Origin: Methanolobus psychrotolerans
Lineage (GTDB): Archaea > Halobacteriota > Methanosarcinia > Methanosarcinales > Methanosarcinaceae
Assembly: GCF_002243045.1 (NCBI RefSeq)
Contig: NZ_MBKP01000009.1
Coordinates: 1-64,000, forward strand
DNA length: 64,000 nucleotides
Direction of reading: 5' to 3'
Shown: in pieces, positions 26,811 to 45,761 of the stretch
Position numbering within the stretch: the first letter of the stretch is position 1
Layout: the number at the start of each line of letters is the position of its first letter
Made by a program: the position numbers and the translations under genes
The notes under the pieces: generated by a model
The model's input: only the letters and a program-made list of their open reading frames with translations
Databases searched by the model: none
What the model was told of the DNA's origin: nothing

Positions 26811-26979
26811 CCGGCAGTATCCGTTTATCACCGGATGCAGATATATTACAGTGGATTCAAAACCCGGATCTACAGGATTTTACATCAGATATGGATTTAA
26901 GATCGTTAAAAGATCTATTAAGAAAGACTACACGTCCCTGTAGCTGAACATGCATCCGATAATAGAGGGCCTTGAATAG
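26811..26979 (+). pseudogene. Deleted copy of the antitoxin-GNAT toxin pair
   Basis: This is a decayed duplicate of the pair at 30428-31100. The tail of the antitoxin gene (CCGGCAGTATCCGTTT) is joined directly to the last 50 codons of the GNAT gene (from ITGCRYITVDSKP), removing about 370 bp. The reading frame then meets TAG at 26941 where the intact copy has TAT (Tyr). The remaining sequence is about 93 percent identical by eye. It cannot make a toxin. Confidence 0.85.
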
Positions 26980-26984
26980 ATCTT

Positions 26985-27190
26985 CCCATACAACAAAGCC
27001 CAATTATCGTACATGTACAGCAGTGAGCATTAGTGGGAGGTCCGCTTTTGCGGGGAGAATGGATGGCATCCTTTGTATCCGTGCAGGAACGATCAATGCC
27101 AGGACCAGCCTTTCCAGGACGGCATCTTTGCGTTAGATCCGGAAGTGAGAATTTTGTTCTTTTTATGGGAGTGGAATGTGCTGCCCGCTG
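26985..27190 (+). repeat. Direct repeat downstream of GNAT copies
   Basis: This segment (from ACAACAAAGCCCAATTATCG to GAGTGGAATGTGCTGCC) recurs downstream of the intact GNAT gene at 31120-31340. The later copy has one extra block of about 30 bp (AGATATCGCTTAAATGC...). It shows the duplication included the 3' flank. No function is seen. The start of a similar tail is also found at 35265. Confidence 0.8.
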
Positions 27191-27679: not shown

Positions 27680-27775
27680 ATGGAGAAGTTATCGATGGCC
27701 GGAAAAGAGAAAAACCTTACTGGGATTGACAACATAAGATTCCTGATCAAGGAGCACAGGGATGAGATCAGATAG
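27680..27775 (+). pseudogene. N-terminal fragment of a second MNT gene
   Basis: Thirty-one codons ending IDNIRFLIKEHRDEIR then TAG. The segment is nearly identical to the start of the MNT gene at 29383 (MDNIRLLIKEHRDEISQLF). It ends at the point where it is fused to the following, different MNT gene, whose ATG at 27762 lies inside this fragment in another frame. Confidence 0.7.
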
Positions 27776-28121
27776 TTGTTATGAGAAGTTCAATGAAATT
27801 CGCGATACATTCGATCTGGTAGAGGCCCTTGGCCTTTCCAGGGACATAGGAGAGGAGCTTCTGGATATTTGCAGACAGAATGATATCGCTTCTCTTGGGC
27901 TGTTTGGCTCTTATTCGAGAGGTCAGCAAAGCCAGGATAGTGACCTTGATCTTTTGGTCACGTTCTCAAAAGGAAAGAGTCTTATTGATCATATAAGGAC
28001 CGAGAAAGCCTTTGAAAACCTGCTTGGGATAAAAGTGGACCTTGTAACTGAAAGATCATTGAGCCACCATCTTGCCCCGGCTATTAAAAAGGATATAAAG
28101 AGGCTGTATCATGAAAGATGA
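27762..28121 (+). CDS. MNT-type nucleotidyltransferase antitoxin
   Basis: A 119-aa minimal nucleotidyltransferase with GLFGSYSRGQQSQDSDLDLL (GSx10DxD catalytic motif). It is the MntA-like antitoxin for the HEPN gene that starts inside its last codons (overlap 28111-28121). The first ten codons (MRSDSCYEKF) are partly derived from the fused remnant upstream; the native start may have been lost, and the ribosome site for ATG 27762 is poor. The core is intact. Confidence 0.85.
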   Translation: MRSDSCYEKFNEIRDTFDLVEALGLSRDIGEELLDICRQNDIASLGLFGSYSRGQQSQDSDLDLLVTFSKGKSLIDHIRTEKAFENLLGIKVDLVTERSLSHHLAPAIKKDIKRLYHER

Positions 28122-28440
28122 TGTTTTTTTCCTGGAGCATATACTTGATGCAGTGAATCAGATAGGAGAATACACCAATATATCGTATGATGAATTCCTT
28201 GAAACACGACTTATACAGGATGCGGTTGTCAGACAGCTTGAAATAATCGGTGAGGCTACAAAGAACCTTTCCGGGATCACGACAGAACGCTGTCCGCATG
28301 TTCCCTGGAAAGAAATTGCAGGAATGAGGGATAAGCTGATACATGCTTATTTTGGTGTTGATCTTGATGAAGTCTGGAACACTGCAAAAAAAGACATCCC
28401 ATATCTAAAGGAAGCTGTCGAGGGGCTTCTGACAAAATAA
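28111..28440 (+). CDS. HEPN-domain (HepT-like) toxin
   Basis: A 109-aa helical HEPN protein carrying RDKLIHAYFG, the Rx4HxY RNase motif of HepT toxins. In known systems the Tyr is AMPylated by the MNT partner to neutralise it. It overlaps the MNT gene by 11 bp, which implies translational coupling. No truncation is seen. It is followed after 13 bp by a YgiT-type gene. Confidence 0.88.
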   Translation: MKDDVFFLEHILDAVNQIGEYTNISYDEFLETRLIQDAVVRQLEIIGEATKNLSGITTERCPHVPWKEIAGMRDKLIHAYFGVDLDEVWNTAKKDIPYLKEAVEGLLTK

Positions 28441-28453
28441 GGATTGATAAATA

Positions 28454-28717
28454 ATGATCCCGGATAGATGTGGTTTTTGCAAAGGTAAACTTGTTGACGG
28501 AAAGCATGAGTTCGTTGTGAAGGTAGGTGAAACCATGCTTGCCATCAAAGATGTTGATGCCTTTGTCTGCCAGGAATGCGCAGAAGCATATTACACACCG
28601 CAAACATCCAGACGCATGGACAAGGTTATGCAAAAGTTTTACAGATCATCTTTGCGTGTCCATCCGCTTGCTGCAGGGGAAATCAGCCTTAGCGAGATAG
28701 AGGCTGAAAACTGCTGA
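28454..28717 (+). CDS. YgiT-type zinc finger protein (MqsA-like antitoxin domain)
   Basis: An 87-aa protein with a CGFCKGKL...CQECAEAYY double CxxC zinc site, followed by YTPQTSRRMDKVMQKFY, typical of the YgiT-type family often paired with a DUF4258 toxin. No DUF4258 gene is adjacent; upstream is a complete HEPN pair. It may therefore be an orphan antitoxin. A truncated copy lies at 33172. Confidence 0.8.
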   Translation: MIPDRCGFCKGKLVDGKHEFVVKVGETMLAIKDVDAFVCQECAEAYYTPQTSRRMDKVMQKFYRSSLRVHPLAAGEISLSEIEAENC

Positions 28718-28738
28718 TCTTATTCTGAAATGAACCGC

Positions 28739-28940
28739 AGATACACTCACCTCTTACAGAGTTGAGTGCCTGCTAAACATCCGTTTAGCAGGTAACGCAG
28801 ATGCACGCAGATATTATTTATTCTCATCTGTGTCTATCGTTGGTCAGGTGAACATTCGCATCTCTACAAAAGCAACATATTTTGATGATGGAACACACCA
28901 CCTGCCAGCGAACCTTTGTCCTCCCCCCTATTCCCCTCCC
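28739..28940 (+). repeat. Hairpin repeat unit with nested 50-nt element and tail
   Basis: The unit begins CCGCAGATA and is interrupted by the 50-nt element (28744-28793), then continues ACGCAGATGCACGCAGAT and an incomplete right arm. A tail with TGGTCAGGTGAACATTCGCA and CACCACCTGCC follows, shared with copies at 31528, 33955 and 35630. The rest, to 29143, is C-rich or AT-rich sequence with no gene seen. Confidence 0.75.
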
Positions 28941-29382: not shown

Positions 29383-29685
29383 ATGACTAAATATGTTAAA
29401 ATGGACAACATCAGGCTCCTGATCAAAGAGCACAGGGATGAGATCAGTCAGTTGTTCAATGCAGAGATAGTTGGTATTTTCGGTTCTTATGCCAGGGGTG
29501 AAGAGAAGATCAACAGTGATGTTGACTTACTTGTAAATTTTAATGAGGATGCTACACTTTTTGACCTTGTTGGACTTGGTGACTATCTGGAAGAGCGGAT
29601 TGGGCTTCCAGTGGACGTTGTTTCAATGAGAGCTTTGCATCCAATGATGAAGAATGAAGTTCTAAAAGAGATGGTAACTATATGA
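29383..29685 (+). CDS. MNT-type nucleotidyltransferase antitoxin
   Basis: A 100-aa MntA-like protein with GIFGSYARGEEKINSDVDLL (GSx10DxD) and the usual C-terminal LPVDVVSMRALHPMM. AGGTG at 29373-29377 is its ribosome site. It overlaps the HEPN gene by 4 bp (ATGA). A fragment of a near-identical gene lies at 27680. Confidence 0.9.
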   Translation: MTKYVKMDNIRLLIKEHRDEISQLFNAEIVGIFGSYARGEEKINSDVDLLVNFNEDATLFDLVGLGDYLEERIGLPVDVVSMRALHPMMKNEVLKEMVTI

Positions 29686-30053
29686 GATTACCGTCGCTGT
29701 ACATTTCAGAGATAATTAGTGCCATTGACTCCATAGATAATTTTACTTCAGGTATGAACAAAGATGGTTTTCTGGATGATGAGAAAACAAAAAGTGCTGT
29801 TGTACGACAGTTTGAGATAATGGGAGAAGCCAGTAAAGCTTTACCAAAGAGCATTAAAGAACTTGCACCGGACATTCCCTGGAGCAATATTGCAGGAATG
29901 AGGGACCGACTTATACACGCTTATTTTGTTGTAGATTATAATCTTGTGTGGAAGACATTGGAAGAAGAATTGCCTGGACTTAAAGAAAGACTTGAAAGAC
30001 TTGAAAGACTTGAAATGCTTCAGATCGATGCTATAAAAGATGAGAAACTCTGA
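29682..30053 (+). CDS. HEPN-domain (HepT-like) toxin
   Basis: A 123-aa helical toxin with RDRLIHAYFVVD (Rx4HxY). It overlaps the MNT stop. The C-terminus carries ERLERLERLE, encoded by a 9-bp unit (GAAAGACTT) repeated about three to four times, so its tail can lengthen or shorten by slippage. Otherwise it is intact. Confidence 0.88.
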   Translation: MRLPSLYISEIISAIDSIDNFTSGMNKDGFLDDEKTKSAVVRQFEIMGEASKALPKSIKELAPDIPWSNIAGMRDRLIHAYFVVDYNLVWKTLEEELPGLKERLERLERLEMLQIDAIKDEKL

Positions 30054-30584: not shown

Positions 30585-31100
30585 ATGTCTGAATCTGATC
30601 TTTCTATTTCTGCGCTTTCTAAGAGAGACGATGTTTTGCTTTTTTGCTGCAATAACGATGATTTGAATGATTTTTTAAAAAATGATGCTCTGAGCAATCA
30701 GGAACAACTCATAAGTAAAACCTATGTTTGTTATTATCGGGGACACTTTGCAGGATACTTTACCCTGACCACAGATACTATAAAAGTTAGATCCGTTGAT
30801 GATTCTGACTGTGTTGATGATTTCCCATATTCCCGTTATCCGGCTGTAAAACTCGCAAGGCTTGCCACTGACAAAAGATTTGAAAGAAAAGGTATTGGCT
30901 CGCATATGTTGTTTGCAGCAATAGGTCTTGCCCAAAGGGTAGCTGACATCACCGGATGCAGATATATTACAGTGGATTCAAAGCCCGAATCTACAGGATT
31001 TTACATAATATACGGATTTAAGATCGTTAAAAGATCTATTAAGAAAGACTACACGTCCCTGTATCTGAACATGCAACCGATAATAGAGGACCTTGAATAG
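30585..31100 (+). CDS. GNAT-family acetyltransferase toxin
   Basis: A 171-aa GCN5-type acetyltransferase. The acetyl-CoA loop RKGIGSHML follows ARLATDKRFE, and the end YITVDSKPESTGFYIIYGF is typical of TacT/AtaT-like toxins that acetylate aminoacyl-tRNA. Its target here is not known. It is preceded by a short antitoxin gene and a palindromic operator. A deleted duplicate lies 4 kb upstream. Confidence 0.82.
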   Translation: MSESDLSISALSKRDDVLLFCCNNDDLNDFLKNDALSNQEQLISKTYVCYYRGHFAGYFTLTTDTIKVRSVDDSDCVDDFPYSRYPAVKLARLATDKRFERKGIGSHMLFAAIGLAQRVADITGCRYITVDSKPESTGFYIIYGFKIVKRSIKKDYTSLYLNMQPIIEDLE

Positions 31101-31690
31101 ATCCCCCGCCCATACAACAAAGCCCAATTATCGTACATGCACAGCGGTGAGCGTTAGTGGGGTTCGCTTTTGCGGGGAGAATGGATGGCATCCTTTGTAT
31201 CCGTGCAGGAACGATCAATGCCAGGACCAGCCTTTCCAGGACGGCATCTTTGCGTTATATCCGGAAGATATCGCTTAAATGCTGGAAAGTTTCCGGAAGT
31301 GAGAATTTTGTTCTTTTTATGGGAGTGGAATGTGCTGCCTGCTTCCTAAACGGATACTTTTGTACAAAGAACTACGAGTATGCCTGTGTTATCTGCTAAA
31401 CGACTGTTTAGCAGGCACTCAACTCCGTAGGAGGTGAGTGTATCCGTGTTCATCTGTGGTTTCTTTCAAAATATGAACCGCAGATAAACGCAGATACACG
31501 CAGATATTGCTTCTTGTCGTCCGTGTCTGTCGATGGTCAGGTGACCATTCGCATCTCTGCAAGATGAACATATATTCATGATGAACCGCACCGCCTGCGG
31601 CGGGGTGGTTGCATTGTTATAAGATCCACCAAAGAGCATGCAACAAATCTCAGCAGACCGACCAGCGGACCCCGTCTTATAGTGATCCAC
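31101..31690 (+). repeat. Repeat block: GNAT 3' flank, 50-nt element, hairpin unit, tail
   Basis: No gene is seen. In order it holds the direct repeat also found at 26985, a segment shared with 35265-35330 (ACTTTTGTACAAAGAACTACG), the 50-nt element in reverse orientation (31391-31440), part of a hairpin unit, and the tail repeat with GGTCAGGTGACC, a GCCGCCTGCGGCGG palindrome-like core and GACCGACCAGCGGACCC. ORFs listed here are artefacts of the repeats. Confidence 0.75.
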
Positions 31691-31691
31691 A

Positions 31692-31858
31692 GCTTAAAAC
31701 AGACAGATCAGCATCATTATCCCCTCAATATATATAACACCGCAAATTATTCTTGCGAGATTTTCACAAAACTTAAATATGTTCCCTGAGTTTAGTTTAC
31801 CCAACGAAGTATAATTATACAGGCATACGATCTGCCTGCTGTGTTGGGTGAATGAAAA
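31692..31858 (+). promoter_or_regulatory. Promoter and structured leader, copy 1
   Basis: This segment matches 36107-36275 at about 80 percent. TATA-like boxes occur at ATATATATAAC (about 31729) and AAAACTTAAATATG (about 31769). The leader that would follow folds: outer stem ACCCAAC (31799-31805) with GTTGGGT (31843-31849), inner hairpin GTATA-AT-TATAC (31809-31820), and hairpin CAGGCA (31820-31825) with TGCCTG (31833-31838). Compared with copy 2, stems P1 and P2 keep pairing through changes on both sides. It ends at the start codon of the truncated epimerase. Confidence 0.65.
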
Positions 31859-32035
31859 ATGGTGGTAGTGAGCAGTCTTTCTGATCTTAGGATTCTGGTT
31901 ACAGGTGGCGCCGGCTTCATCGGCAGTCACGTAGTTGACAGGCTTGTAAAGTCAGGTAACAAAGTTACCGTTTTTGACAACCTCAGCTTCGGCAGGATGG
32001 ATTTCATAGCCCATCATCATAATAATTCTTATTAA
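31859..32035 (+). pseudogene. Truncated NAD-dependent nucleotide-sugar epimerase
   Basis: Fifty-eight codons give the Rossmann start of a GalE-like epimerase/dehydratase: [20 protein letters not shown], then [14 protein letters not shown]. The frame breaks after IAHHHNN and stops at TAA 32033. The remaining 250 or so residues, including the YxxxK catalytic site, are gone. What follows is a UPF0175-like gene. It is driven by the duplicated leader and may mark the end of a deleted sugar-nucleotide gene block. Confidence 0.85.
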
Positions 32036-32040
32036 TATCT

Positions 32041-32262
32041 ATGGATGTAACTGAGCACTATCTGATCGAGGAGTACTCAAATGGCAGAATAAGTAAGGGA
32101 AAAGCTGCCAAGATGCTGGATATCAGTATTTATGAGATCAACGACCTGTTCGAAAAACATCGTGTTAAAGATAGTATTAGCTATGAGAACTTTATCAAAG
32201 GCATGGAAATTGCTGAGAAATACAGCAAGTATGGTCCTGATAAAGAGAAAAAGAAAGAATGA
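32041..32262 (+). CDS. UPF0175-like HTH antitoxin candidate
   Basis: A 73-aa protein with the pattern YLIEEYSNGRISKGKAAKML and DISIYEINDLFEKHRV, the helix-turn-helix of UPF0175, a family found as antitoxin of PIN toxins. It ends in a Lys-rich tail (KEKKKE). It is at the edge of a decayed epimerase, and no PIN toxin gene follows. The start at ATG 32041 may be truncated relative to family members. Confidence 0.65.
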   Translation: MDVTEHYLIEEYSNGRISKGKAAKMLDISIYEINDLFEKHRVKDSISYENFIKGMEIAEKYSKYGPDKEKKKE

Positions 32263-32324: not shown

Positions 32325-32685
32325 TCAGATCTGATTCTCCAGTTCGTCCAATAGATCCCGTATCATAGGCTTTGCTTCCGGGATGCCTTCCTTTACGCTG
32401 AGCCAGACAACTTCAAGGTTTACACCAAAATATCCATGGATCAGCTTGTTCCGAATGCCTGCCAGATCTTTCCAGGGAATTGAAGGGTAATTTTGCCTTA
32501 TATCCTCAGGGACTTTCTTTGCTGCTTCACCAATTATCTCCAGGGCCCGTATCACGGCGTATTGAGTCTTGATATCTTTTAGGAAATCCTCAAAAGTACA
32601 GCCATAGACAAAGTTCTCTGCTGCATCCATGGCATTGCAGATGTCCTGTACATAGTCCCTTATATCCCGAATGCTAATCCCTCAT
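32325..32685 (-). pseudogene. HEPN toxin gene with a one-base frameshift near its start
   Basis: The body is a standard HEPN toxin with IRNKLIHGYFGVN (Rx4HxY). In other cassettes the HEPN ATG overlaps the MNT stop (ATGA). Here that ATG (32685) is followed by AGG GAT TAG and stops. Removing one G from the GGG run (32679-32681) restores MRISIRDIRDYVQ and runs into the rest of the gene. So an extra base silences the normal start. Translation from ATG 32630 (101 aa) or from the in-frame ATT remains possible but would lack the first helix or need a rare start. Confidence 0.7.
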
Positions 32686-32984
32686 ATGGCTTCAACTTCC
32701 TTAAGTATGTATTTTCCGATATTTGGTTTCAGTGCATCTTTCATGACAAGATCCACTTTGATCCCCAGATAATCGGAAAGGTAGTTCTCCAGATGAACGA
32801 ATCTGAAAATAGTAGGAGTTTTGCTAAACTCCACCAGCACATCAAGATCACTTTCCGTAGTGTGATCTCCCCTTATATAGGACCCAAATAATCCTATGTA
32901 ACTTACATTATATTGCTCTTTCAACTCCGGCAGCATTTCGCGGAGTTTGGTTCTGTATAGTTCAACATCTCTATTATCTGGCAT
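32682..32984 (-). CDS. MNT-type nucleotidyltransferase antitoxin
   Basis: A 100-aa MntA-like protein with GLFGSYIRGDHTTESDLDVL (GSx10DxD) and C-terminal KPNIGKYILKEVEAI. It is the antitoxin partner of the frameshifted HEPN gene directly downstream. It is intact; its ribosome site is weak. The pair faces the opposite way from the others in this region. Confidence 0.88.
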   Translation of the reverse strand: MPDNRDVELYRTKLREMLPELKEQYNVSYIGLFGSYIRGDHTTESDLDVLVEFSKTPTIFRFVHLENYLSDYLGIKVDLVMKDALKPNIGKYILKEVEAI

Positions 32985-33155: not shown

Positions 33156-33171
33156 CTAGCTCGTTGATAAG

Positions 33172-33306
33172 GAATGCGCAGAAGCATACTATACCCCGCA
33201 GACTTCCGGACGCATAGACAAGGTTATGCAAAAGTTTTACAGATCATCTTTGCCTGTCCATCCGCTTGCTGCAGGGGAAGTCAGCCTTAGCGAGACAGAG
33301 GCTTAA
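33172..33306 (+). pseudogene. C-terminal fragment of YgiT-type gene
   Basis: Forty-four codons (ECAEAYYTPQTSGRIDKVMQ onward) match the end of the gene at 28454-28717 with several substitutions and a different stop. Its N-terminus with the first CxxC is missing. The similarity continues past the stop into the hairpin repeat and 50-nt element, so a block of at least 200 bp was duplicated. Confidence 0.8.
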
Positions 33307-33333
33307 GAAATGCTGGTCTTATTCTGAAATGAA

Positions 33334-34035
33334 CCGCAGATACACTCACCTCTTACAGAGTTGAGTGCCTGCTAAACATCCGTTTAGCAGGTCACGCAGA
33401 TGCACGCAGATTTTTGTTTATTCTCATCCGTGTTTATCCGTGTTCATCTGTGGTTTTATTTCACATTGGACCGCAGATAAACGCAGATGCACACAGATAT
33501 TGTTTATTCTCATCTGTGTTTATCTGTGTTCATCTGTGGTTTTAATTAATAGCGAACCGCAGATAAACGCAGATGCACGCATATATTGATTCTTGTCGTC
33601 CGTGTTTATCTGTGTTCATCTGTGGTTTTAATTAATAGCGAACCGCAGATAAACGCAGATGCACACAGATATTATTTATTCTCATCTGCGTTAATCTGTG
33701 TTCATCTGTGGTTTTAGTCAATAGCGAACCGCAGATACACGCAGATGCACGCAGATATTGGTTAGTCTCATCTGCGTTAATCTGTGTTCATCTGTGGTTT
33801 TATTTCACATTGGACCGCAGATAAACGCAGATGCACGCAGATTTTTGTTTATTCTCATCCGTGTTTATCCGTGTTCATCTGTGGTTTCTTTCAAAATATG
33901 AACCGCAGATAAACGCAGATGCACGCATATATTGATTCTTGTCGTCCGTGTCTATCGATGGTCAGGTGACCATTCGGTTCTCTATAAAATTAACATATAT
34001 TCATGATGGACCGCGCCGCCTGCGGTGAAGTGAGT
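33334..34035 (+). repeat. Array of palindromic 86-bp repeats (plus orientation)
   Basis: At least six units begin with CCGCAGATA(A/C)ACGCAG at 33471, 33557, 33643, 33729, 33815 and 33903, spaced 86 bp (last 88). A first unit at 33335 carries the 50-nt element (33343-33392). Each unit is a hairpin: a left arm of three GCAGAT boxes 10 bp apart, a loop of about 13 nt (ATTGTTTATTCTC), a right arm of three ATCTG boxes, then TTTTAATTAATAGCGAA. The array ends in the tail repeat (GGTCAGGTGACC). It is not a CRISPR array. The stretch to 34253 contains nothing recognisable. Confidence 0.9.
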
Positions 34036-35264: not shown

Positions 35265-35800
35265 GGAATGCGCCGCCTGCCTCCGGAACGGATGCTTTTG
35301 TACAAAGAACTACGGGTATGCCTGTGTTATCTTCTAAGTTGAGCAGGCACTCAACTCCGTAGGAAGTGAGTGTATCCGTGTTCATCTGTGGTTTTAATTA
35401 ATAACGAACCGCAGATAAACGCAGATGCACACAGATATTGTTTATTCTAATCTGCGTTAATCTGTGTTCATCTGTGGTTTTAGTTTATAGCGAACCGCAG
35501 ATAAACGCAGATGCACACAGATATTGTTTATTCTAATCTGTGTTTATCCGTGTTCATCTGTGGTTTTAGTTAATAACGAACCGCAGATACACGCAGATGC
35601 ACACAGATATTGTTTATTCTCATCTATGTCTATCGATGGTCAGGTGACCATTCGGATCTCTACAAAATTAACATATATTGATGATGGAACGCACCACCTG
35701 CCACCGATATGTTTACGCCATTATCAAACCCACCAAAGAGCATGCACCAGATCTCACCAGACCGACCAGCGGACCCCTGGACAAGCGACACAAAAGCCCG
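35265..35800 (+). repeat. Repeat block with 50-nt element, three hairpin units and tail
   Basis: It opens with a copy of the 31325-31390 segment (CTTTTGTACAAAGAACTACG). A damaged 50-nt element follows (35329-35371), then hairpin units starting near 35408, 35494 and 35580 (86-bp spacing), and the tail repeat with GGTCAGGTGACC and GACCGACCAGCGGACCCC. The sequence to 36106 is C- and A-rich with no gene seen. ORFs here translate the repeat and are not real. Confidence 0.8.
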
Positions 35801-36106: not shown

Positions 36107-36333
36107 GCTTAAAACAGACAAATTACCACCATTATCCCCACCATTTATATATAACGCCGCAAATTATTCTTGCACTATTTTCACAAAACTTAAATATGTT
36201 CAATGAATCTAATGTACCCATTGAAGTACAAATGTACAGGCATACGATGTGCCTGCTGTGATGGGTGATTGAAAAATGGTGGTATCAGACAGATCATATT
36301 TTACTCATGTTTTCTTTCTGAGCTGGTAATATC
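36107..36333 (+). promoter_or_regulatory. Promoter and structured leader, copy 2, before wzx
   Basis: Duplicate of 31692-31867, matching up to 36284. TATA-like boxes: TTTATATATAAC (36144) and AAAACTTAAATATG (36186). The leader folds the same way: ACCCATT (36216-36222) with GATGGGT (36260-36266), GTACA-AA-TGTAC (36226-36237), and CAGGCA (36237-36242) with TGCCTG (36250-36255). It continues through AAAATGGTGGTA, which is a start codon in copy 1, then about 50 bp of unique sequence to the flippase ATG. Confidence 0.65.
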
Positions 36334-37614
36334 ATGTTCAACTTCAAGCTCACCAAAACGATGCGTGATGTCCAGTGGTCATTCATCAGCCTTGCCACTG
36401 CATCTTTATCCCACCTGCTGCTAAGGATAGTTCTGGGAAGGGAGCTTGGACCTGAGGGTTTGGGAGTTTACACGCTGGTTTTTACCATTTATCTTTTTGG
36501 AATGCAATTTGCAGGTTTTGGTATTGGATCAGCTTTAACTAAATATGTTGCTGAGTTCAGTGACGAATCCAGCAAAGTCAAAGAATATGTTTCAGCAGGA
36601 TTTTCAAGTTCAATAATCACTGGCGTTATGATGGCCATTGTACTTTATTTAGTATCTGATTTTATAGCTATGTCAGTGTTCCACATTCCTGAAATGGGTG
36701 ACTTTCTTAAATTTGTATCTTTCTGTTTGCCATTCATAGCTATTCAAAAAATGGTATTAGGAGCCTTGGTTGGCCTTCGTAAAATGAAATTGTATGCATT
36801 GATAAATATTATCCAGAACACGTTCATCTTTTTATTATCTATTTACCTGGTTTTGGTCTTAAATGCTGATGTAAGAGGAGCAGTATTTGGTTTTGTTATC
36901 CCTACTATAATAATAAGCATTATATCTGCCTTTTTCATTAAAGACTTGTACAAAATTACATATTTGTCCTTTACAGACAAATTTAAGGACGTAGCATGGT
37001 TTGGATTTTATTTTGTTCTGGCAAATTCAATTGGAATGATTAATACTCAAATTGATAGCTTGATGGTTGGACATTTAATGGATGCTACAAGTGTAGGAAT
37101 ATATGCTGTTGCAATAATAATAATACATGGAATCACGTTGATACCCAATTCTGTTCATACTGCAATAGCACCGCCTATAGCGTATCACTATGGAAAAGGT
37201 GAATATGAAAAGACGATTAATTTGATTAGACAAACGATGCTTAAAGTATTTATTGTCATATTCGTTATTGCTTTAGTATTGGCTTTTTTTGGAGAAACTT
37301 TAATCGTTTTACTATTCACTAATGATTTTATATTTGCATATTCTCCCTTGCTAGTTTTACTAATTGGTTATTCTATTTATTCACCTGTACATTCTGTTGA
37401 CTGTACACTTTTAAGCATAGGGAAAGTTAATGTAATATACAAAATAGCTTTAATATGTGCTATTTGCAATATTATATTCAATATTTTACTAATTCCTAAA
37501 TATGGGATATTAGGTGCCTCATTGGCCACCAGCATGTCAATTATTTTGTTGTCAATATTGAAATTATATTTTATTAAAAAATACGTATTGGATTTGAGAA
37601 ATACTTTAAAATAA
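36334..37614 (+). CDS. Wzx-like polysaccharide flippase (MOP superfamily)
   Basis: A 426-aa membrane protein with 12-14 helices and the polysaccharide biosynthesis pattern near the start (LGPEGLGVYTLVFTIYLF). It should flip lipid-linked oligosaccharides across the membrane for surface glycan or S-layer glycosylation. Codon use is strongly AT-rich compared with the 0-26 kb genes, suggesting transfer. It begins the polysaccharide locus and is preceded by a duplicated leader. GGTAATATC precedes ATG; ribosome site is weak. Confidence 0.88.
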   Translation: MFNFKLTKTMRDVQWSFISLATASLSHLLLRIVLGRELGPEGLGVYTLVFTIYLFGMQFAGFGIGSALTKYVAEFSDESSKVKEYVSAGFSSSIITGVMMAIVLYLVSDFIAMSVFHIPEMGDFLKFVSFCLPFIAIQKMVLGALVGLRKMKLYALINIIQNTFIFLLSIYLVLVLNADVRGAVFGFVIPTIIISIISAFFIKDLYKITYLSFTDKFKDVAWFGFYFVLANSIGMINTQIDSLMVGHLMDATSVGIYAVAIIIIHGITLIPNSVHTAIAPPIAYHYGKGEYEKTINLIRQTMLKVFIVIFVIALVLAFFGETLIVLLFTNDFIFAYSPLLVLLIGYSIYSPVHSVDCTLLSIGKVNVIYKIALICAICNIIFNILLIPKYGILGASLATSMSIILLSILKLYFIKKYVLDLRNTLK

Positions 37615-44811: not shown

Positions 44812-45475
44812 GAATGAACATCTGCGTTCATCTGCGTTTATCAGCGGCTCACTATTAAAACTAAAACCACAGATGAACACAGATAAACACAGATGAGAAT
44901 AAACGATATCTGCGTTCATCTGCGTTTATCTGCGGTCCACTATTAACTAAAACCACAGATGAACACGGATAAACACAGATGATAATAACCAATATCTGCG
45001 TTTATCTGCGGTTCACTATTAACTAAAACCACAGATGAACACGGATAAACACAGATGATAAAAGCCAATATCTGCGTTTATCTGCGTTTATCAGCGGCTC
45101 GCTATCAAAACTAAAACCACAGATGAACACGGATAAACACAGATGATAATAACCAATATCTGCGTTCATCTGCGTTTATCTGCGGCTCACTATTAACTAA
45201 AACCGCAGATGAACACGGATAAACACAGATGATAATAACCAATATCTGCGTTCATCTGCGTTTATCTGCGGTCCACTATTAACTAAAACCACAGATGAAC
45301 ACAGATAAACACAGATGAGAATAAACGATATCTGCGTTCATCTGCGTTTATCTGCGGTTCACTATTAACTAAAACCGCAGATGAACACGGATAAACACAG
45401 ATGATAATAACCAATATCTGCGTGCATCTGTGTTTATCAGCGGTTCGCTATTGACAAAAACCACAGATGAACACG
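44812..45475 (-). repeat. Array of palindromic 86-bp repeats (minus orientation)
   Basis: Eight units of the family seen at 33334, in reverse orientation. ACC(A/G)CAGATGAACAC begins near 44867, 44953, 45029, 45117, 45203, 45289, 45375 and 45461. Spacing is 86 bp, except one 76 (lost one 10-bp box) and one 88. Loops read GATAATAACCAA or GAGAATAAACGA. No gene is inside. Confidence 0.9.
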
Positions 45476-45761
45476 AATACAAAACAACCACCCGCCGCAG
45501 GCGGCACCTTCCATCATCACTGAATAAAGTCAAACTTTATTGTCATAACAATAATTGTATACACAATAATACTTAACACTTACCAGAACAGATCCACAAC
45601 ATCCACCATAGTAACTCAGACCCACAACCAACCCACAGCAGGATGCACCTTCCATCGTCAACAAACAACATACTCCGCGACAAAAACAACGATCAGCGCA
45701 AATACAAAGATCAGCGCGGATACAAAAACAAGAGCCACAACCACCCGATCCCGGACAACCA
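45476..45761. repeat. Dispersed repeat flank of the AlbA_2 gene
   Basis: It holds CCGCCGCAGGCGGC (hairpin core), an ATTGT-ATAC-ACAAT dyad near 45553, and GATCAGCGCGGATACAA sequence. The same order recurs at 48380-48715, partly at 47510-47640 and 50100-50290. It extends into the last codons of the AlbA_2 gene, so these copies derive from its 3' end. Confidence 0.7.

Follow-up and report, generated by a model that had tools for sequence, protein, structure and literature searches.

We think it likely, if by no means certain, that two segments of Methanolobus psychrotolerans DNA, at 31692-31867 and 36107-36284, are two examples of a conserved module that starts the expression of surface-glycan operons in Methanolobus. 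Positions are those of the window, the whole stretch of 64,000 nucleotides that was analyzed. The module would run from an archaeal BRE/TATA promoter through a leader of ~60 nt and a Shine-Dalgarno sequence (SD) to a start codon with the opening codons of an NAD-dependent epimerase. In the leader, whose 5' end is probably the first base of stem P1, a second stem, P3, would be the constant hairpin and P1 a variable closing stem. We suggest that the module persists as the genes behind it are replaced; what is left of the epimerase is often a short ORF ending at the start of the next gene. Ribosomes loaded at the leader would then be handed to the new first gene through translational coupling. 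The recurrence of the module, the conservation of its promoter, P3 and the closeness of stumps to the next gene are observations, whereas the transcription start, the coupling and any role of the fold are inferred.

The two copies in the window

The segments form a homologous pair with 85% identity (E = 8.8e-53, nucleotide alignment), and they are the only two copies of the leader module in the 3.16-Mb draft genome. A preliminary description had placed a near-identical promoter and leader at these positions, the first ahead of a truncated epimerase and the second ahead of wzx, and the Pfam assignments below (the N-terminus of PF01370, and PF01943) bear this out. The features are as follows.

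31729..31737, + strand: possible upstream second TATA of copy 1, TATATATAA (sequence inspection)
31763..31782, + strand: core promoter of copy 1, TTCACAAAACTTAAATATGT, BRE-like with TATA box CTTAAATA at 31772-31779 (motif search in relatives)
31799..31858, + strand: copy 1 leader, from the predicted transcription start A31799 to the start codon (covariance model; start from published TATA spacing)
Elements of the copy 1 leader, + strand: P1 31799-31806/31842-31849; P2 31809-31812/31817-31820; P3 31821-31825/31833-31837; SD GGTGA 31847-31851
31859..32035, + strand: truncated NAD-dependent epimerase, stump ORF of 58 codons (PF01370 positions 1-34 only)
32041..32262, + strand: 73-aa UPF0175-like ORF, starting 5 nt past the stump stop (PF03683, E = 1.3e-5, 25.2 bits, below the curated cut-off of 27.9)
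36180..36199, + strand: core promoter of copy 2, TTCACAAAACTTAAATATGT, TATA box 36189-36196 (motif search in relatives)
36216..36275, + strand: copy 2 leader (covariance model)
Elements of the copy 2 leader, + strand: P1 36216-36223/36259-36266; P2 36226-36229/36234-36237; P3 36238-36242/36250-36254; SD GGTGAT 36264-36269
36276..36329, + strand: 17-codon stump ORF MVVSDRSYFTHVFFLSW, stop 4 nt before the wzx start (ORF inspection)
36334..37614, + strand: wzx-type flippase (Polysacc_synt; PF01943, E = 1.4e-25)

Both copies have the same layout, with the promoter, a spacer of 16 nt, a leader beginning ACCC (31799 and 36216) and a start codon at 31859 and 36276 respectively. The covariance model matches copy 1 at 31798-31850 with 41.6 bits and copy 2 at 36215-36267 with 39.5 bits, both copies being in the seed of the model.

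In M. psychrophilus the TATA box lies ~19-22 nt from the transcription start, and 51% of mRNAs have a 5' UTR longer than 50 nt (PMC5378194). The TATA box of copy 1 ends at 31779, and A31799, a purine and the first base of P1, lies 20 nt further on. With the published spacing this makes A31799 the best candidate for the start, and the RNA is thus predicted to begin with the stem, as had been proposed. The upstream TATA-like stretch at 31729-31737 could give a longer RNA; its counterpart in copy 2 is TTTATATATAA at 36144-36154, and several relatives have one likewise. Just 5' of the core promoter of copy 1 is an inverted repeat, CGCAA-N7-TTGCG, at 31741-31757. It is kept in several relatives, reads CCGCAA/TTGCGG in the copy from Methanomethylovorans, and is possibly an operator or a hairpin of a longer transcript.

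Many recent duplications of 92-98% identity lie in the region of the two leaders. Among them are 26827-27145 with 30948-31267 and 28572-28815 with 33170-33414, spaced by ~4.1 and 4.6 kb, and judged by identity these pairs are apparently younger than the duplication that gave the two leaders (85%). An 86-nt repeat rich in ATCTGCGTT(C/T)ATCTGCG units forms arrays of several copies between and beyond the leaders, at 33343-33962, 35281-35728 and 44817-45521. Three pairs of adjacent ORFs nearby (27762-28440, 29383-30053 and 32325-32984) resemble, in their translations only, MNT nucleotidyltransferase/HEPN toxin-antitoxin modules.

Recurrence of the module ahead of changing genes

We searched 60 relatives by blastn and also used a covariance model, for which 11 leaders had been aligned by hand. 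Leaders like those in the window (type I) number 13 in 11 genomes, comprising 10 of the 27 Methanolobus genomes and one metagenome-assembled genome (MAG) of Methanomethylovorans. The carriers are the window genome and G026 with two copies each, and G021, G014, G016, G025, G001, G007, G009, G019 and G095. The copies in G009 (46.8 bits) and G095 (34.8 bits) were recovered by the model though they lie outside its seed; the latter is on a short contig of the Methanomethylovorans MAG and could reflect transfer or mis-binning. The leader therefore does have further copies in related genomes, the lack of which was to have counted against it, and nearly all of those of type I head surface-glycan genes. 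The scan of the genome collection gave no new type-I species, its matches in Bacteroidota being due to chance, and no copy was found in phage records. Pattern matches in viral contigs were one family of near-identical stretches, of which none matched the covariance model.

The core promoter is present with 0-2 mismatches in 17 of the 27 Methanolobus genomes, in some elsewhere than ahead of the leader, and the reversed control pattern gave no match. A second type of leader (type II) has the same promoter and a CAGG/CCTG hairpin, and lies 5' of wecB-like remnants in G006, G010, G015 and G026. Searching for type II across the family added the copy in G010 as well as a third, degenerate one in G026, the matches in other genera being short. 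The type-II leaders (L056, L061, L063, L078 and L161) are followed by a short ORF, which has 17 codons in G006, G015 and G026; in the last two of these it overlaps the GTG/TTG start codon of the wecB-like remnant. Divergent leaders are found 5' of full epimerases in G003, G008, G012, G001 and G014. In one of these (L057, from G012) the 5' end TAGCCA pairs with TGGCTG in the start-codon region around a strong hairpin (-23.5 kcal/mol), a fold-back onto the initiation site that differs from the P1-type fold.

Compared over eight lineages, identity upstream of -75 is at background (0.25-0.33). The most conserved 15-nt window of the module is that of the TATA box (0.96); the first 30 nt of the leader have an identity of 0.74-0.79 and the start codon (ATG) 0.87, and beyond this it falls to ~0.5. 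From this profile, at background before -75 and high from TATA to ATG, the module is a bounded unit in unrelated surroundings.

Only three of the 13 type-I copies (G026a, G021 and G007) are followed by a full-length epimerase, which is 324 aa in G021; in the other ten it is a stump of 9-72 codons. The gene that comes next after the module and stump varies, and includes wzx, wecB, a DegT-like aminotransferase, a nucleotide-sugar dehydrogenase-like gene, another flippase and others, named by sequence inspection except where Pfam was run. Proteins similar to wzx lie 3' of the module in G001, G007, G009, G016 and G019, from their N-termini by inspection. That most copies stand on gene stumps suggests that the whole start region is reused, and not the RNA element alone.

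In nine of ten stump copies the stump ends -4 to +9 nt from the start of the next ORF, a count to be read with the choice of next start favoring small gaps and with the starts in G025, G001 and our copy 1 being provisional. The first stop of the two other frames fell in that interval in none of 20 cases. Because of the bias in start choice the safe cases are the six copies where the start of the next gene is recognizable (copy 2 of the window, G026b, G095, G014, G009 and G019), of which G026b and G095 may descend from one common deletion. A coupled hand-over of ribosomes would be the simplest reading of stops placed at the next start, although the stumps could instead be recent decay without function.

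The fold of the leader

The leader had been drawn as an outer stem (P1) enclosing two hairpins (P2 and P3), with stems that covary as in a selected RNA. P1 is ACCCAACG/TGTTGGGT in copy 1 and ACCCATTG/TGATGGGT in copy 2, P2 is GTAT/ATAC and GTAC/GTAC, and P3 is AGGCA/TGCCT in both; the base changes originally quoted for P1 and P2 are correct. The 53-nt leader core differs at seven positions between the copies, and all 17 proposed pairs can form in each; two pairs have changed on both sides and one has gone from C-G to U-G. When seven substitutions were placed at random all pairs were kept in 1.3% of trials, and kept with at least two double changes in 0.04%, values biased in favor of the structure, since it was drawn with both copies in view.

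Over the 13 copies 87.6% of cells are paired, against 26-44% with the partner slid, and 0-1 of 500 shuffles reached the observed pairing percentage or covariation score when relatedness is ignored. A tree-aware null let substitutions arise along the leader tree at fitted rates, independently at each site (13-21 sequences). Five pairs have double changes where 2.4 are expected (p = 0.021), with p = 0.065 for double-change cells and a joint p of 0.003 for double-change pairs with pairing kept; but the cells kept paired gave p = 0.11-0.14. The covariation is thus suggestive. Collecting relatives' leaders with a covariance model, the check originally proposed, gave copies 5' of glycan genes but not strong covariation of the three stems across many copies.

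The stems fare differently. RNAalifold retains P3 alone, with both ordinary and model-fitted alignments. For P3, each arm fits its own partner better than a swapped one in the pooled set of types I, II and divergent leaders (p = 0.0004-0.001), and with one sequence per lineage (p = 0.006-0.008); within type I alone the own partner of P3 was not better than a swapped one, and the swap test within type I gave p = 0.06. P1 is complete in both window copies and in G001, and nearly so in G025, G007, G014 and G019. It is weak or broken in G026a, G026b, G021 and G095, a clade of four copies, in G009 (in part) and in G016. Divergent epimerase leaders lack it, among them those of G008 and the second copies in G001 and G014, each with a full-length epimerase downstream. 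P2 is weak in all copies, and is absent from the minimum-energy folds of both window copies, which consist mainly of P1 and P3. From the RNAalifold consensus, the swap test and the survey of P1 we conclude that the P3 hairpin is well supported, that P1 is plausible as a closing stem that is not constant, and that P2 is doubtful. Of the fold as drawn, P3 was recovered and P1 is intact in the window, but P2 is missing from the minimum-energy folds, and neither P1 nor P2 is family-wide. Homologues whose pairs fail to covary had been named as evidence against the structure; P1 loses pairs in the six copies listed and P3 holds.

What the module might do

The copies might be an ordinary epimerase promoter and 5' UTR that segmental duplication and recombination have spread within an unstable region, and whose fold is incidental. 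The recent duplications around the window copies, the retention of P3 alone by RNAalifold and the tree-aware result for pairing retention are all in keeping with this. Yet the module outlives the epimerase in ten copies and has a sharp upstream boundary, the stump stops are located at the next start, and the arms of P3 match their own partners across types. We regard this neutral account as improbable, though it deserves to be taken seriously.

P1 covers GGGT of the SD, so masking of the SD is an obvious candidate function: the 5'-terminal P1 would pair with the SD and switch translation of the glycan genes by temperature, ligand or protein. Stem-loops predicted to mask the RBS in M. psychrophilus 5' UTRs (PMC5378194), and the excess of double-change pairs, are consistent with such regulation. 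The predicted cost of opening the SD is 4.7 and 7.1 kcal/mol in the window copies, against shuffled means of 2.9 and 3.2, and 15% and 5% of shuffles respectively have costs as high. In the other copies it is 0.3-4.6 kcal/mol, not clearly above shuffles, so a conserved helix around the SD is not a feature of most copies, let alone of all. The four-copy clade has a broken P1, the swap test within type I is marginal, and in ten of 13 copies the SD directly serves a mere stump. A regulatory leader of this kind is unlikely. As a general mechanism we reject the SD-masking switch, given the ordinary opening costs elsewhere and the stumps that the SD governs; one confined to the window genome is possible. 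The data argue only weakly for the RNA fold itself regulating anything. Within the start module that we favor, the leader fold would most likely act on mRNA 5'-end stability or on translation initiation.

A JUMPstart/ops- or LoaP-like leader for processive antitermination, by which RNA polymerase would read through long glycan operons, would suit a position at the head of surface-glycan operons irrespective of the first gene, but is very improbable: a search of the 27 Methanolobus genomes gave a single Spt5 (NGN) match in each and none to bacterial NusG, which argues against RfaH/LoaP-type control through a specialized paralogue, and there is no ops/JUMPstart match in Rfam. No intrinsic terminator was found in the leaders on the + strand.

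The control and diversification of surface glycans in archaea are poorly understood. A constant module would form a steady boundary to a variable glycan locus and offer a handle for locating and testing such loci in methanogens, and the gene stumps are possible natural coupling devices. The suggestion that the leader is undescribed holds within our searches: Rfam 15 gave no match at gathering score in the window and none up to E = 5 for either leader, and we found no description of such a leader in the open-access literature. What is new is an operon-head leader of surface-polysaccharide genes that is archaeal, and is joined to gene stumps that may couple translation.

The long 5' UTRs of M. 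psychrophilus (PMC5378194) come from the same genus and share a leader of more than 50 nt with predicted RBS-masking stem-loops, but that study covers alternative transcription starts chosen by temperature, and epimerase or glycosyl genes do not appear in its main text. The LoaP-responsive leader hairpins of Bacillus (for example PMC12691694) and the EAR element are likewise hairpin leader RNAs of biosynthetic or polysaccharide operons, but here no LoaP-like factor was found and there is no sequence or family match. The enterobacterial JUMPstart/ops element with RfaH is also short and conserved, and heads variable polysaccharide operons largely independently of the first gene; our module too is a conserved element at the head of surface-polysaccharide operons. 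In contrast to JUMPstart/ops it includes an archaeal promoter, has no NusG/Spt5 paralogue that we could find in the genus and no Rfam match, and appears tied to translation initiation. Tentatively, we entertain a selected, portable start cassette in which a genus-specific structured leader, its promoter and a coupled stump ORF stay in place as Methanolobus surface-glycan gene sets are exchanged behind them, an archaeal analogue of JUMPstart in function that would act at translation or mRNA stability and not by antitermination. In translationally coupled leader ORFs a short ORF has a stop that overlaps or adjoins the following start; here, by contrast, that ORF is the stump of a gene and recurs before different next genes.
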